From: Candidatus Nanoarchaeia archaeon
GTDB lineage: Archaea > Nanobdellota > Nanobdellia > Woesearchaeales > JANQNE01
Length of the DNA stretch: 64,000 nt
NCBI GenBank assembly: GCA_028279725.1
Contig: JANQNE010000010.1
Coordinates: 124,001 to 188,000, forward strand
Reading direction: 5' to 3'
Position 1 is the first letter of the stretch, and each line of letters starts with the position of its first letter. Positions 14,105-20,096 of this stretch are shown piece by piece. Position numbers and translations under genes: made by a program. The notes below the pieces were generated by a model, which saw only the letters and a list, made by a program, of their open reading frames with translations, searched no databases and was not told the origin of the DNA.

Positions 14105-14268
14105 AAAAGCATCGCCTTAGTCTCATCCAGAAAACCCCTTAATTTCCTCTTACACACCAATCATATATAAATCTTTCCATATGTAACTATTAATAAGTAC
14201 TAACAACTATATTATATTTAGGGCAATCTTTAAAAAACCCACTCATCTTCTAATGACAAGTGATTAGA

Positions 14269-16038
14269 ATGGCAAAGATACGTTCACCAATATGCTCATG
14301 CTTAGGTCATGTAGATCATGGAAAATCATCTATATTAGATAAGATTAGAAACACAGCTATTGTCCAGACAGAAGCAGGAAAGATTACACAGGCAATCGGA
14401 GCTTCGATAATACCTCTTTCTACAATAGAAAAGATCTGCGGACCATTACTCAAATCACTTAAGATGGATTTCACGATTCCAGGCCTTCTTATGATAGACA
14501 CACCAGGCCACGCTGCATTTACATCATTAAGAAAAAGAGGAGGAAACTTAGCAGACATCGCAATCTTAGTTGTAGACATAAACGAAGGATTCAAGCCACA
14601 GACAATAGAAGCTATTGAGATCCTTAAATCATTCAAGACTCCTTTCATAATTGCAGCAAATAAGATAGACCTAATCCATGGATGGCAGAAAAAAGATGAA
14701 TCGATCCTAAAAAACATCTCATCACAAGGTCCAGAAACCCAAAAGAGCTTTGAGAAAAAGATGTATGAATTGGTCGGCCAGTTATATGAACAATTCCAGC
14801 TAAATGCAGAACGCTTTGACAGGGTTGAGGACTACACAAACCAGGTCGCAATAATACCAACTTCCGCAGAGACAGGAGAAGGGATCCCAGAACTTCTGAT
14901 GGTATTGACAGGACTTGCGCAAAAGTTCCTTGAGCAGTGCTTAGAATGTACAATAGAAGGTCCTGCAAAAGGAACTATATTAGAAGTAAAGGAAGAAAAA
15001 GGCCTAGGAGCAACCATGGATGTTATATTATATGATGGAACTCTAAAAGTGAATGATCAGATTGTCATAGGGTCTATAGAAGGACCAATAACAACAAAGA
15101 TCAGAGCTTTATTCGAACCTTCTCCATTAGCGGAGATGAGAGACAAAAAATCCAAGTTCAAATCAGTTAAAGAAGTTTCTGCTGCTATTGGAGTAAAGAT
15201 ATCAGCTCCAAACACAGAAGGAGTTATAGCAGGCATGCCAATAAGATCAACAACACAGGACAATTTAGAGACTGTAAAACAGGAGATTGCCTCAGAAGTT
15301 GAAGAATCTTTGATAGAGACAGACAAAGAAGGGATAATAATAAAAGCAGATACACTAGGGTCATTAGAAGCACTCACAAAACTTCTGAAAGAAAAAGGAA
15401 TTGCAGTATCCAAAGCATCAATAGGAGATGTTTCTAAAAAAGACATAGCAGAAGCAGAATCAAACTACAATAAAGATCCATTACTTTCAGCAATCCTTGG
15501 CTTCAATATATCAACTCAGCCAGACATAACAATTCCAGACACAGTAAAGGTAATAACAGAGAAAGTTATCTACACTTTGATAGAAAACTTTGAGAGATGG
15601 CAGGAAGAAAAACAAAAAGAGATAGAGCTTGGCGGCTTAGATCAGGTCACAAGACCATGTAAGATTGAATTTCTTAGGGGTTATGTTTTTAGGCAAAATA
15701 ACCCTGCAGTTGTAGGTGTAGAAGTTCTGGCAGGCCAGCTAAACTCAGGCATAGATCTTATGAAACGTGATGGCATCCCAATCACTACAGTAAAATCAAT
15801 CCAACAGGAAAAAGAATCTGTAACTAAAGTGGAGAAAGGAAAACAAGTTGCAGCTTCTTTAGATAGAGTGACTGTCGGAAGACAGATCAACGAAGGAGAT
15901 ATTCTCCTATCAGTGATCTCAGAGGATGATTTCAGAAAACTGAAGGAATTCAAGACATCATTATCAAAAGAAGAGATAGAATTGCTTAAAGAGATAGCAG
16001 AGATCATGAGAAAAGACAACCCAGTTTGGGGAGTATAA
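14269..16038 (+). CDS. infB: Translation initiation factor IF-2 / aIF5B
   Basis: About 589 residues. aIF5B is the GTPase that promotes subunit joining and initiator tRNA placement. G1 'GHVDHGKSS' (~12-20), G3 'DTPGHAAF', G4 'NKID' and the IF2-specific C-terminal domains ('CKIEFLRGYVFRQNNPAVVGVEVLAG') are clear. I chose the ATG that gives MAKIRSPIC; a GTG nine bases upstream (14260) is also possible. A TATA-like CTTTAAAAAACC at about 14229-14240 fits a leaderless message. Length matches archaeal aIF5B (~595), and no intein is present. Confidence 0.96.
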   Translation: MAKIRSPICSCLGHVDHGKSSILDKIRNTAIVQTEAGKITQAIGASIIPLSTIEKICGPLLKSLKMDFTIPGLLMIDTPGHAAFTSLRKRGGNLADIAILVVDINEGFKPQTIEAIEILKSFKTPFIIAANKIDLIHGWQKKDESILKNISSQGPETQKSFEKKMYELVGQLYEQFQLNAERFDRVEDYTNQVAIIPTSAETGEGIPELLMVLTGLAQKFLEQCLECTIEGPAKGTILEVKEEKGLGATMDVILYDGTLKVNDQIVIGSIEGPITTKIRALFEPSPLAEMRDKKSKFKSVKEVSAAIGVKISAPNTEGVIAGMPIRSTTQDNLETVKQEIASEVEESLIETDKEGIIIKADTLGSLEALTKLLKEKGIAVSKASIGDVSKKDIAEAESNYNKDPLLSAILGFNISTQPDITIPDTVKVITEKVIYTLIENFERWQEEKQKEIELGGLDQVTRPCKIEFLRGYVFRQNNPAVVGVEVLAGQLNSGIDLMKRDGIPITTVKSIQQEKESVTKVEKGKQVAASLDRVTVGRQINEGDILLSVISEDDFRKLKEFKTSLSKEEIELLKEIAEIMRKDNPVWGV

Positions 16039-16304: not shown

Positions 16305-16757
16305 ATGCAAAAACTAAAGATTTTGAGCAAAAGAGAGACAAAAGAGATCCTGAAGATGATAGAATCTCAGTGGGATGCAAAACTCAAATTAGATTATGTT
16401 TTCCTAAAAAACGATGAAGGAAAGATATTCATAATAAACAAAGAGTTCTCAGACATAGATGAAAAAAAACTAAGGATCAATTCGATGGGCCTTTACTTCG
16501 GAGAGCTTAGGAACAACGAATTAAGATTGACTATAGAAGCATCTCAGATAATAGGAAAACAGGCGAAAAAATCAATCATAGATCTTGATGATCAGCAGAT
16601 CAAGGATTACATAAAAGGAAAAGATATTGAATACAGATCAGAAGAAAAAGGGTTTTTCCTGATAAAACACAAAGATGATTTCTATGGGTCCGCAAAACTA
16701 AAAAACAACACCATCTTAAACTTTTTTCCAAAATCAAGAAGGATCAGTGCAGATTAA
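16305..16757 (+). CDS. PUA-domain ribosome-biogenesis protein (COG3270-like)
   Basis: 150 residues. The N-terminal half 'LSKRETKEILKMIESQWDA' and the stretch 'GKIFIINKEFSDIDEKKLRINSMGLYFGE' followed by 'LRLTIEASQIIGKQA' match the archaeal family related to the C-terminal part of NOL1/NOP2/Fmu RNA methyltransferases, with a PUA-like C-terminus ('EEKGFFLIKHKDDFYGSAKLKNN'). No SAM domain is present, so it is an RNA-binding accessory rather than a methyltransferase. It follows the lipoprotein gene by 12 nt and overlaps the tail of the convergent gene at 16754 by 4 nt. Confidence 0.75.
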   Translation: MQKLKILSKRETKEILKMIESQWDAKLKLDYVFLKNDEGKIFIINKEFSDIDEKKLRINSMGLYFGELRNNELRLTIEASQIIGKQAKKSIIDLDDQQIKDYIKGKDIEYRSEEKGFFLIKHKDDFYGSAKLKNNTILNFFPKSRRISAD

Positions 16758-18646
16758 TACCTGCTGTATTCTGAAGTTATTGTTTTTACTTCAGCTCTCT
16801 GTCTGCTACTCAACTTTTCCTCATTATCTTTTAAGAAAGAGTTAAACTCCCCTATATATCTGATAAGATTGCTGAAGTGAGGAACATCTCCTCCAACATG
16901 TTCTGTCGTATTGTTCAACAGCAGCTTGTGGCTGTTTATCAGGCATTTGTATATATTGAACATAGTCTGCGCTTTGACTCTGCCTTCGACCTTAAATCTG
17001 TCGGGGAAATCATCCAGTTTAGCCTTATAGTGGTCTATCATCCTTATGACATCATGGTCTTTGTACTCTTTTTCAGAATCCCTCTTTAATTTTTTGTATC
17101 TCTCATTCATATCTCCGTTAAGCCAGCACACATATACAGAAAGACAGTGGACATCACTCAATGCATCAAGATCTTTTGTCTTATACTTTTTCCTAAAACC
17201 ACCTTTAGAAGTGATCTCTTCAAATAGCTTTACAAGGCCCATTGCAGTATCTTTTACCTTCATAGCAATTCCAGAATCACAAAGGTCTCCAACATCATGA
17301 TCAAATCTTTTCAGTATCTCATCAGTATAGCATTTCAGAAGATTGGTCAGCTTTGACTGCAGTGTAGGTATCCCAACACCCACTCTTTTGCTTCCCTTAC
17401 TATCATACTGGAATGATCTAAGTTCTTTGATAAATTTTTTTCTTTGCCTGCTCAGATAATCTTTTCTTCCCCCTAGGCTAAGCCTGCTGTATGTTTCATA
17501 TATTGTTTCAGTTATTGGCTTTGTATAACACCCATCAAATATTGCACTAGCCCTCATCTTTATCTCTTCATAGATTTTCTCATATAGGGGATCCTTATCT
17601 AGTATCTCTCTCAACTGTTCCTGCATATAATCTTCATGAGGTATTACTTCCTTCTTCCTATCAACCTTCTTTCTACGTTTTGGATCTCTTGCAAACTCAT
17701 TATCCATAAGATCGTTTAGTGTTCTGAACATATGGTAATCAAACAAAACACCATTATCCATATCGATAAATTTTACTTGTCTCTGTCCTTTATTCTTGTG
17801 GTCTGGTTTATTATCACTATCCTCTATCACATTCAGTCCAGAAAATAATGATCTTTGTCCAAAATCCCTTCTTCTGTTCTTCAATATAAGAAACCCGAAG
17901 ATATCCGGTATCAATATATCTCCATATGTTATCTCAGGATAATATCCATTATTTTCCATCTTGTAGGATTCTATCTTATCTATAAGTTTGATCCACTTTC
18001 TGCCCACCTTCTCTACAATTCTCTGTATACTTTTTATCCTCCTTCCGAATACGTCTATCTGGCATGCACGGCTGCTCTGAGGAATCCTATAGAACAGGCT
18101 CATGTTCATAAGCATGCCTTCTAGGTTCTTTTTCTTAGACGCATTCTGGTTAAATCTTTCAAACCTTTCATTGAAATCCTCCATATGTTCTGGATAAAAT
18201 TCAGAAAGCTGTTCTGTTGTAATCTCTTCTATATTTCTTTTATATTCTAATCTATTATGTATATGTTCTTCTTCAAATACAGAACCTCTTTTTAAGGAAT
18301 CAAACATCTCATCAGTAAGATCTTTATATTGCTTGAAACACTTCTTATAAGCAGATTCCCATCTTGAATAAAAGTCAGGCTTTCCGTCTGTTATATGGTC
18401 CAGAACTGAAGATAAGAAAGAATAATCCCTCTTCTTGGGTTTTAACATACCACCTATAGCTTTCTTTATTGCAGTCTGATATTCTTTTGGAAGTGGTGTT
18501 TTTAGGAAACTTATATACTCCTTTTTCTTATCATCTCTTCTTCTGTTTTGCTGGAATTTTGAGAAAGCTTTAACCAAATCAATTCCAAATTCAGGACCCA
18601 TCCCGCTGAACATGACTTCAAAAACTTCTTTCTCACTTATTGCCAT
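16754..18646 (-). CDS. Large protein paired with the HD gene; possible RelA/SpoT synthetase relative
   Basis: 630 residues, charged and mostly helical, without signal or membrane segments; not confidently recognised. The middle contains 'FGRRIKSIQRIVEKVGRK' (~200) followed by 'DILIPDIFGFLIL' (~243) and 'VKFIDMDNGVLFDYHMFRTL' (~290). This order of a basic 'RxKSxxxIxxK' helix, a 'DIxGxxIL' strand and a later strand-helix resembles the RelA/SpoT nucleotidyltransferase core, but the similarity is weak and key catalytic residues are not certain. It overlaps the upstream HD-domain gene by 14 nt, so the two are translationally coupled and probably work together. Confidence 0.55.
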   Translation of the reverse strand: MAISEKEVFEVMFSGMGPEFGIDLVKAFSKFQQNRRRDDKKKEYISFLKTPLPKEYQTAIKKAIGGMLKPKKRDYSFLSSVLDHITDGKPDFYSRWESAYKKCFKQYKDLTDEMFDSLKRGSVFEEEHIHNRLEYKRNIEEITTEQLSEFYPEHMEDFNERFERFNQNASKKKNLEGMLMNMSLFYRIPQSSRACQIDVFGRRIKSIQRIVEKVGRKWIKLIDKIESYKMENNGYYPEITYGDILIPDIFGFLILKNRRRDFGQRSLFSGLNVIEDSDNKPDHKNKGQRQVKFIDMDNGVLFDYHMFRTLNDLMDNEFARDPKRRKKVDRKKEVIPHEDYMQEQLREILDKDPLYEKIYEEIKMRASAIFDGCYTKPITETIYETYSRLSLGGRKDYLSRQRKKFIKELRSFQYDSKGSKRVGVGIPTLQSKLTNLLKCYTDEILKRFDHDVGDLCDSGIAMKVKDTAMGLVKLFEEITSKGGFRKKYKTKDLDALSDVHCLSVYVCWLNGDMNERYKKLKRDSEKEYKDHDVIRMIDHYKAKLDDFPDRFKVEGRVKAQTMFNIYKCLINSHKLLLNNTTEHVGGDVPHFSNLIRYIGEFNSFLKDNEEKLSSRQRAEVKTITSEYSRY

Positions 18647-20024
18647 TCTCGTACTTGTCTTTCATCCCTTTATAGACATTATTTAGGTTATAGTTTCTCT
18701 TTTTGAATCTATCAAGTATTTTTTCAAACGCCAGACAATCCCTGTATAATCCTTCAACATCTTTTTTACTTACTTTCTTCTTGCTCTTTTTTACCTTATC
18801 ATAATGCAGCTTTAGATCATACTTTTCTATCACTTCTTTTATGATCGGGTTCCAGTCTTCGATCTGCTCATATTTTTCTATAACCTTTTCATCCAAGAAT
18901 CCTCTTAAATATTCTATCTCCCCTATTATTTTTTTTCTTTTATTTCCTGCCAGCTGTTCCTTTGTCTTTTCTCGCAGATTGCCAAACACATCATAAACTC
19001 TTTGGTGATATTTATGGAGCTTTTCTGTAAGCATTGTATGATGATCGTCTAAGAAGTTCCGCATCCTGTTTATTGTAGTTATGTTCTTATTTATTGCAGA
19101 CAACCTATCATATGTTGAAAAGCTGTAAGAGTTTCCATCTTCTAGCCTGCCCATGGTTTCAGTATTATCTTCCCTATCACACCCTTTCGCAATTATGATT
19201 CCGGTAGCCCTTGTAAGCTCCTTCTTGCTTATCCTTTTATCACCATAATATCCAGAAGCAAATATCTCTTTTTGGTATTTGTAATAATATTGATGAATGT
19301 CTTTTGTCAGCTTATCGACTATATCCACTACACTTCCAACATCAAATTTCAGACCAAGATCTCCTTTTATTTCAGAAAACTTCTCCCTTATATTCTTTAG
19401 GTATCTTTCTTTGAATCTCTTATATCCACCAACTATCCATCTTCTTTCTTCTCTTAATCTGGATAGCTTTCTGCGCTTAAGTACACACCATTTTTTTTCT
19501 TTTTCAAGATTTCTAACCTCTTCTTCGAGATTAGAGATATCACTTTCTTTTTTCCTAAGCTCTTTCTTTAATCTTCTATAGGTATTATCTTCTTCTATAA
19601 CATCATGCAATATTCCGCCGACTATTGTTTCTATATTGCCTCCAACATTACTGATCTTGTTTGCAACTCTAAGAGAATGCTGGAAGAACAGCTCTCCTCT
19701 TTTTCTTCTTCTTAAGCTATATTTCTCTATAGCATAATGTATTGCATACTTTATCAGTTCTCTTTCGTTCTCTTCTTTCTTCTTAGCTCCATATACTACT
19801 TTAGCCAATTCCTCTAATCTTTCATCATAATCTTCTTTCTTAAACTGATCTACAAACTCCTTTCTAATATCCGTATGTCTGCCTTTCTTGATCATAGAAT
19901 TAAGTCCAAAAGTCTCCTCTATCAGGTTATCTATATGTATGGTTTTAAGGTCTAGATGTCTCATCTCATCAGAGATCTCAATATCCTCCAGAATCGCATT
20001 TTGCTCTAAAATATCGTCTTCCAT
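18633..20024 (-). CDS. SpoT-like HD-domain phosphohydrolase with coiled-coil insertion
   Basis: 463 residues from the ATG at 20024, which has a GAGG ribosome site; a TTG at 20045 is an alternative. The HD fold of RelA/SpoT hydrolases is visible: 'RKRGELFFQHSLRVA' (107-121), 'GGILHDVIEED' (136-146), 'VVDIVDKLTK' (232-241) and 'IIIAKGCDREDNTETM' (276-291), so the metal ligands H116, H140-D141 and D283 are in place. A basic coiled coil (~150-220) is inserted between the HD pair and the next helix, which standard SpoT proteins lack. It is the first gene of a two-gene operon. The substrate is unknown; (p)ppGpp-like hydrolysis is inference. Confidence 0.72.
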   Translation of the reverse strand: MEDDILEQNAILEDIEISDEMRHLDLKTIHIDNLIEETFGLNSMIKKGRHTDIRKEFVDQFKKEDYDERLEELAKVVYGAKKKEENERELIKYAIHYAIEKYSLRRRKRGELFFQHSLRVANKISNVGGNIETIVGGILHDVIEEDNTYRRLKKELRKKESDISNLEEEVRNLEKEKKWCVLKRRKLSRLREERRWIVGGYKRFKERYLKNIREKFSEIKGDLGLKFDVGSVVDIVDKLTKDIHQYYYKYQKEIFASGYYGDKRISKKELTRATGIIIAKGCDREDNTETMGRLEDGNSYSFSTYDRLSAINKNITTINRMRNFLDDHHTMLTEKLHKYHQRVYDVFGNLREKTKEQLAGNKRKKIIGEIEYLRGFLDEKVIEKYEQIEDWNPIIKEVIEKYDLKLHYDKVKKSKKKVSKKDVEGLYRDCLAFEKILDRFKKRNYNLNNVYKGMKDKYENGNK

Positions 20025-20096
20025 CCTACCCTCAAAACTGCTCAATCAACGACCATTTATAAAGCTTTCGTAGAATAACTACTTCAAAGTAGAAAA

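Follow-up and report, generated by a model that had tools for sequence, protein, structure and literature searches.

A 64,000-nucleotide (nt) stretch of DNA from Candidatus Nanoarchaeia archaeon (contig JANQNE010000010.1, positions 124,001 to 188,000 of the forward strand; "the window" below) raises the question of whether two adjoining genes make up a RelA/SpoT system divided between two chains, and what such a pair would do. The upstream gene, ORF1 (18633..20024, minus strand), encodes a SpoT-like HD phosphohydrolase of 463 amino acids (aa), and the downstream gene, ORF2 (16754..18646, minus strand), encodes a protein of 630 aa that is assigned, through its orthologues and a chain of profiles, to a diverged class of RelA/SpoT-type nucleotidyltransferases (NTases) resembling pyrophosphotransferases. 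The end of ORF1 and the start of ORF2 overlap by 14 nt (18633..18646), as an earlier, sequence-only reading of the window had reported. The two genes have homology to the two halves of RelA/SpoT, retain the metal site of the HD domain and the RxK motif and Asp of the NTase, lie at a conserved locus, and are under purifying selection. The answer that we consider reasonably probable is that they form an eraser-writer pair of the RelA/SpoT type, for which co-transcription, catalysis, an acceptor and mutual antagonism are predicted. ORF2, the writer, would take pyrophosphate from ATP and attach it at the 3' side of an acceptor, either a nucleotide or an RNA, and ORF1, the eraser, with its HD metal-site residues in place, would remove the pyrophosphate added by ORF2.

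The assignment of ORF1 begins with matches to the Pfam family HD_4 (E 1.8e-6) and to the N-terminal part of the NCBIfam model spoT_relA (E 3.1e-9). A profile built from five related HD proteins (A2) was compared with the PDB and found RelSeq (1vj7) at the top (E 3.9e-17), followed by other Rel/SpoT chains and MESH1; since all of the matches are RelA/SpoT homologues (RSH), MESH1 or of the small alarmone hydrolase (SAH) type, the protein is not closer to another HD family, an outcome that the earlier reading had named as damaging to its proposal. The HD core spans approximately aa 93-290 (19155..19748, minus strand; residues are numbered from the ATG at 20024), as judged from the invariant columns of A2 and the alignment with 1vj7. 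Within it R107, H116, H140-D141, E144, E145, D283 and N287 align with R44, H53, H77-D78, E81, D82, D144 and N148 of RelSeq, residues with roles in hydrolysis whose RelSeq numbers were counted from the same alignment. The SpoT-like motif set claimed from the letters alone is indeed there: the metal and catalytic set R, H, HD, E, D, D, N is kept apart from one substitution, Asp82 to Glu. Among the HD proteins of the survey described below, the positions of H53, H77 and D78 are kept in 32 of 32, that of D144 in 31, that of E81 in 30 and that of N148 in 29. The insertion noticed earlier in this domain is also real, in that the distance from the HD motif to the second Asp exceeds that in RelSeq by about 75 residues. 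It occupies approximately aa 148-215 (19380..19583, minus strand; boundaries by eye), is rich in charged residues, resembles a coiled coil to the extent that Pfam coiled-coil families match it weakly, and is absent from RelSeq and from the HD proteins of two related loci, L034 and L035 (G and L numbers are our handles for genomes and loci). On these sequence grounds ORF1 is an RSH-type HD hydrolase (SpoT/SAH type), and hydrolysis of a 3'-pyrophosphorylated nucleotide is its predicted activity.

Relatives of ORF2 were found in only two others of 371 genomes of the phylum, G220 and G084 (E 4.6e-5 and 7e-4), which belong to one genus. The orthologues (L035:4317-6410 and L034:4275-5603) are about 25% identical to the window protein and stand at the same locus: in both genomes an aIF5B gene and a PUA gene are followed by ORF2 and the HD gene on the opposite strand, which is the window layout. 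In the window the aIF5B-type initiation factor gene (14260..16038, plus strand), named from a reading of its sequence, precedes a gene for a PUA-like protein of the RsmF type (16305..16757, plus strand; Methyltranf_PUA E 4.1e-10), and this gene is convergent with ORF2, the ends of the two overlapping by 4 nt. The ratio of nonsynonymous to synonymous substitution (dN/dS) between the congeneric G084 and G220 is 0.15 in the HD gene and 0.19 in the core of ORF2, values that indicate purifying selection on both, so that both genes are maintained. A search of a contig collection with ORF2 alone gave no match, and one with a profile of the ORF2 search (A1) gave a single contig, equal in length to the known G220 contig. 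In 352 genomes of the order, A1 returned the three ORF2 loci, G301 at E 0.087 and G128 at E 2.8e-4; the G128 match was rejected as a false positive, lying inside a radical-SAM ORF that is presumably YgiQ-like. The G220 locus has two peculiarities. Between PUA and ORF2 (L034:2249-3956) are genes for a DNA methylase (E 3.3e-63) and for a nuclease of the DpnI type (E 2.5e-65), apparently a restriction-modification-like insertion at the pair locus, and ORF2 itself (L034:4045-5603) has its C-terminal part deleted, with a remnant in another frame behind a stop and the NTase core open.

The wider family came into view at the aIF5B-PUA site of G330, where PUA has an HD gene on one side and an NTase-like gene of 415 aa on the other. 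The aIF5B places were therefore used to fetch 120 more loci; these are no random sample, being drawn from the listed aIF5B places, and they are not independent of one another, as several come from the same genus. The factor gene itself is matched in 324 of the 352 genomes of the order. A profile made from the synthetase domains of 46 single-chain RSH of the phylum, run against the 921 ORFs of 125 loci, picks out ORFs convergent with PUA, the best being those of L185 (3.2e-16), L168 (1.4e-13), L166 (5.3e-13) and L157 (3.8e-12). Iteration of the profile without the ORF2 trio gave 40 NTase rows, one of which (L206|2123) is an HD protein that matched through the linker part of the profile; it was dropped from the alignment of cores and from the comparison with trios of real proteins, both described below, but stands inside the 40-row residue counts. 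Another row (L137) belongs to a separate, metF-linked pair.

PUA followed by 3 kb or more of sequence is present at 78 loci, and of these at least 40 have an NTase, 27 an HD gene and 21 both. These counts are lower bounds, since L118 and L152, with an NTase beside PUA, are missing from the 78-locus table; ORFs of L135, L129 and L106 are further NTase candidates outside the counts, and Pfam finds nothing in L135 or L109. Five of the 78 (the window, L034, L035, L037 and L089) were chosen for their content, and without them the figures are 36, 22 and 17 of 73, the 73 including L157, which was fetched after its PF04607 match had been noticed. The 21 loci with both genes span 12 family labels. In 24 of the 25 pairs compared, one of them the metF-linked L137, the HD gene lies upstream of the NTase gene on the same strand, and the gaps between their stop-to-stop frames run from -50 to 608 nt. 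The aIF5B-PUA place thus often holds an NTase gene that evolves fast, with an HD gene ahead of it.

It is through this family that ORF2 can be connected to RelA/SpoT. A profile of the L034 and L035 proteins ranks window ORF2 next after themselves among the 921 ORFs (E 4.1e-7), and a profile of 34 NTases made without the trio finds the L034 protein at E 3e-6 and the L035 protein at E 0.0058. Profile-profile comparison, the check proposed at the outset for the 630-residue protein, aligned the ORF2 trio with the 34-NTase profile over 150 columns (hhalign probability 82%, E 1e-5), with RxK and Asp248 kept. In an earlier version of the comparison the trio scored 37.2, against a maximum of 18.0 and a mean of 13.5 for 81 trios assembled from the other proteins of these loci; 60 column shuffles scored 13.8 or less and the reversed trio 12.8. 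The NTase cores were then represented by A3, a 37-row MAFFT alignment without seven long or divergent members (L194, L184, L161, L163, L171, L115 and L132) and without cuts of more than 300 aa. PF04607 (RelA_SpoT) matches 17 of the 37 cores (best E 2.2e-18), other Pfam families match one core each at most, and 20 cores are missed by Pfam. Against the PDB, the first 26 rows for A3 are all alarmone-synthetase or RelA/SpoT chains (best 6fgk, E 7e-24), and in the genomes of the class A3 finds canonical-size RSH at about 1e-25. Membership of ORF2 in the RelA/SpoT synthetase family is supported, by way of intermediate profiles, and the NTase-like segment noted earlier is borne out through relatives rather than by Pfam or NCBIfam.

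The NTase core of ORF2 lies at approximately aa 195-345 (17612..18064, minus strand), as placed by A3, a model of aa 122-387 and the PDB matches, and is flanked by additional segments of about 190 and 280 aa. R203-I204-K205 (18032..18040, minus strand) forms the putative ATP-site RxK motif, and D248 (17903..17905, minus strand), the putative first metal-binding Asp, is the sole invariant column of A3, with K205 and K213 nearly invariant. D248 falls at the position of RelA D264; E323, Y308 and H312 are further synthetase residues in this numbering. D303-Y304-H305 (17732..17740, minus strand) stands at the ExQ of EVQIRT, with Asp for Glu, in A3, hmmalign and hhalign alike; Asp is also found there in L144, L102 and L140. 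A3 and hmmalign led to the rejection of DYH as a candidate SLH motif. Across the 40 family rows R is kept in 30, K in 33, the first Asp in 36, the Glu in 35 (with Asp in 3 more) and the Tyr of the G-loop in 24 (with Phe in 7 more).

Several results weigh against this assignment. ORF2 alone has no Pfam or NCBIfam match, with none to PF04607 up to E 10; the 34-NTase profile without the trio misses it (E 920), its single-sequence hhalign comparison is at background (13.3), and the trio, when first compared with a profile of canonical RSH by hhalign, fell short of significance (E 0.33). AlphaFold, given full ORF2 and a 3-row alignment, returned a mean predicted local distance difference test score (pLDDT) of 38.9. 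With A3, aa 122-387 reached a pLDDT of 71 and a predicted template modelling score of 0.67, and in VIA-align 2 the first 18 entries for this core model are alarmone synthetases or Rel/SpoT, at modest Z scores of 6.5 to 5.0; in Foldseek its best PDB match, B. subtilis SAS1, has an E of 4e-3, with none at 0.001 or below. A3 includes the proposed relatives, and the model is therefore not an independent test. The active sites also depart from type: Asp82 of RelSeq is Glu in ORF1, the second acidic residue of ORF2 is Asp303 rather than Glu, and the Tyr of its G-loop GYxSLH and the following His are Gln and Lys (the L035 and L034 proteins have Phe or Tyr at the Tyr place). The Gln suggests that the acceptor or the rate of ORF2 may differ, and since more sites are lost in several family members, some copies may be inactive. 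If ORF2 were unrelated to RelA/SpoT, its motifs would be fortuitous and the HD gene alone would be RSH-like, which would suit both the missing library match and the low-confidence unaided model. It would leave unexplained the two-step profile chain with its controls and the sharing of locus and partner with clear PF04607 proteins, and the core model, best matched by alarmone synthetases, supports the RelA/SpoT NTase assignment as far as it goes; we regard an unrelated ORF2 as very improbable. A different use of the altered sites is that ORF2 is a dead or weakened NTase serving as regulatory subunit or sensor of ORF1, the sole working enzyme. The G-loop Tyr and Glu are indeed altered, the HD metal-site residues hardly vary among the surveyed proteins (three of them are kept in 32 of 32) whereas the NTase sites vary more, and the truncated and frameshifted copy in G220 keeps an open core. 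That said, the first Asp does not vary in A3, RxK is kept, Asp can stand in for Glu as a metal ligand, and the ORF2 core is under purifying selection, so that an inactive writer seems unlikely.

The product of the pair is a separate matter. The two genes might jointly replace Rel as a (p)ppGpp stringent-response system in an organism without a single-chain Rel: no other RelA_SpoT gene was found in the window genome (0 matches to PF04607, with ORF2 alone found by A3), the gene order mirrors the domain order of Rel, and both catalytic sites are largely kept. Against this, pairs are found alongside canonical-size single-chain RSH in seven genomes (G084, G220, G078, G081, G135, G151 and G068) and without it in the window genome and G330, and the pair is therefore not simply a Rel replacement. 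ORF2 also lacks the G-loop Tyr, no TGS or ACT domain is matched in either protein by Pfam, and divergence is far faster than in canonical RSH, the pair genes standing on far longer branches than the canonical RSH of the phylum. In the NTase tree, which is unrooted, a branch with support 91/90 separates the family rows from 16 canonical RSH; the HD tree is a quick one, also unrooted. A stringent-response role is thus quite unlikely. A growth-arrest module, similar to toxin-antitoxin systems and possibly antiviral, fits better than a housekeeping stringent response, because of the fast divergence together with the fixed paired order, and because a single-chain Rel can serve the housekeeping role in several relatives that carry both. 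The eraser-writer pair is perhaps, then, a rapidly changing module of toxin-antitoxin or defence-like character at a fixed, hypervariable archaeal locus. A fuller version of this idea, offered as a tentative and rather speculative one, would make the aIF5B-PUA locus of the order a fixed island that houses a hypervariable writer-eraser system. The writer, a transferase of the RelA/SpoT type that in some members has a Cys motif resembling a zinc finger ahead of its core, would pyrophosphorylate a translation component such as the 3' end of tRNA, and its HD partner would reverse the modification. The result would be an archaeal module for growth arrest or antiviral defence that differs from the bacterial toxic small alarmone synthetase (toxSAS) operons by its size, its locus and its partner. 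A regular expression for two zinc-finger-like C-x(2-4)-[CH] pairs matches 13 of 45 NTase ORFs, the window copy not among them. PADLOC matches none of the window proteins; its candidate class PDC-S33 matches the NTase part in 4 of 6 other family proteins.

How the pair relates to known systems bears on its origin. It shares with the long RSH (Rel, SpoT; RelSeq 1vj7) the HD hydrolase residues, the order of HD before synthetase and the family of the NTase core, and differs in consisting of two chains without recognised TGS or ACT parts, in the long HD insertion, and in an NTase that escapes PF04607 and has the large flanking parts given above. RelP and RelQ (YjbM, YwaC) match the NTase core best, by profile as well as by fold; they are single-domain proteins of about 210 aa with a G-loop tyrosine and are not known to be paired with an HD gene. 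The single-chain RSH of the phylum (PF04607, about 640 aa) has both domains, but is well conserved (PF04607 E about 1e-40), lies elsewhere in the genome and is absent from the window genome. A split RelA/SpoT pair had been proposed, and that much stands: each gene supplies one half of the RelA/SpoT type, and their operon-like layout follows the domain order of Rel. Fission of one Rel and a (p)ppGpp product do not gain the same footing; the NTase profile comes closest to stand-alone synthetases (6fgk, E 7e-24) and long Rel is the best match of the HD profile (1vj7, E 3.9e-17), which leaves the fission origin unsupported.

The nearest working analogue appears to be the toxSAS operons, in which synthetase-type and hydrolase-type genes adjoin; PMC11782079 describes bacterial faRel with a small alarmone hydrolase gene, aTfaRel. 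The window proteins are two to three times larger and have a fixed place beside aIF5B, and A3 is nearer to RelP/RelQ and Rel (7e-24 and 5.8e-21) than to FaRel2 or CapRel (2e-5 and 4.2e-6). With such two-gene arrangements on record in bacteria, the suggestion that a split pair would be new does not hold as it was put. A literature search, taken at the level of result lists, surfaced no paper on such an archaeal pair, and PMC3153485 reports archaeal small alarmone synthetase or SAH genes singly. Nor are RelA/SpoT genes rare in this phylum, as had been supposed for archaea generally: PF04607 matches 149 of the 371 sampled genomes (145 over the cut-off), and PMC8407392 gives 41.7% of Woesearchaeota. 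PMC8646023 reports that attempts to find (p)ppGpp in the archaeal models Haloferax volcanii and Sulfolobus acidocaldarius gave a negative result. The pair offers testable enzymes for the question of archaeal 3'-pyrophosphate signals or tRNA pyrophosphorylation, in an archaeal lineage that has a single-chain Rel plus a second, strongly diverged two-gene version common at one locus. It also points to an RSH branch that evolves fast and may be part of conflict systems.

The frame of ORF1 is open over 18633-20045 (minus strand) if a TTG start is used; the ATG at 20024 is the likelier start, with a TATA-like TTTATAAAT at 20063-20055, about 30 nt ahead of it by eye. A scan for sigma-70 promoters and terminators gave no excess of promoters over shuffles (10 found, 13.3 expected). 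The upstream neighbours of ORF1 are a DUF371 gene and a GTPase gene that we take to be DRG-like.

Related genes occur in other arrangements. In G084 and G220 stand-alone PF04607 NTases of about 300 aa (L085:925-1836, L084:1471-2364) are present beyond the pair and the single-chain RSH. G155 has a 604-aa HD gene at its aIF5B locus (L089:9816-11630) and a weak NTase-like ORF (PF04607 E 0.011) elsewhere, on another contig (L087:1135-2268). L122 (G382, of another family label) and L037 (G330) show the same locus and agree exactly in lengths and scores, which would fit a single contig assigned to two bins, and L122 was kept outside the 78 loci as a repeat. HD genes of like appearance without an adjoining NTase were seen at L040:6494-7777, L041:4954-6273 and L038:2999-4174, two of them beside a gene that is presumably methionine-aminopeptidase-like. 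A second kind of split pair is found in G066 and G278 (L083:1348-2978, L082:55-1618), where an HD-like gene of 272-288 aa, which in L082 escapes Pfam, overlaps a RelA_SpoT-domain gene of 258-260 aa and is followed by a gene that we take to be metF-like.

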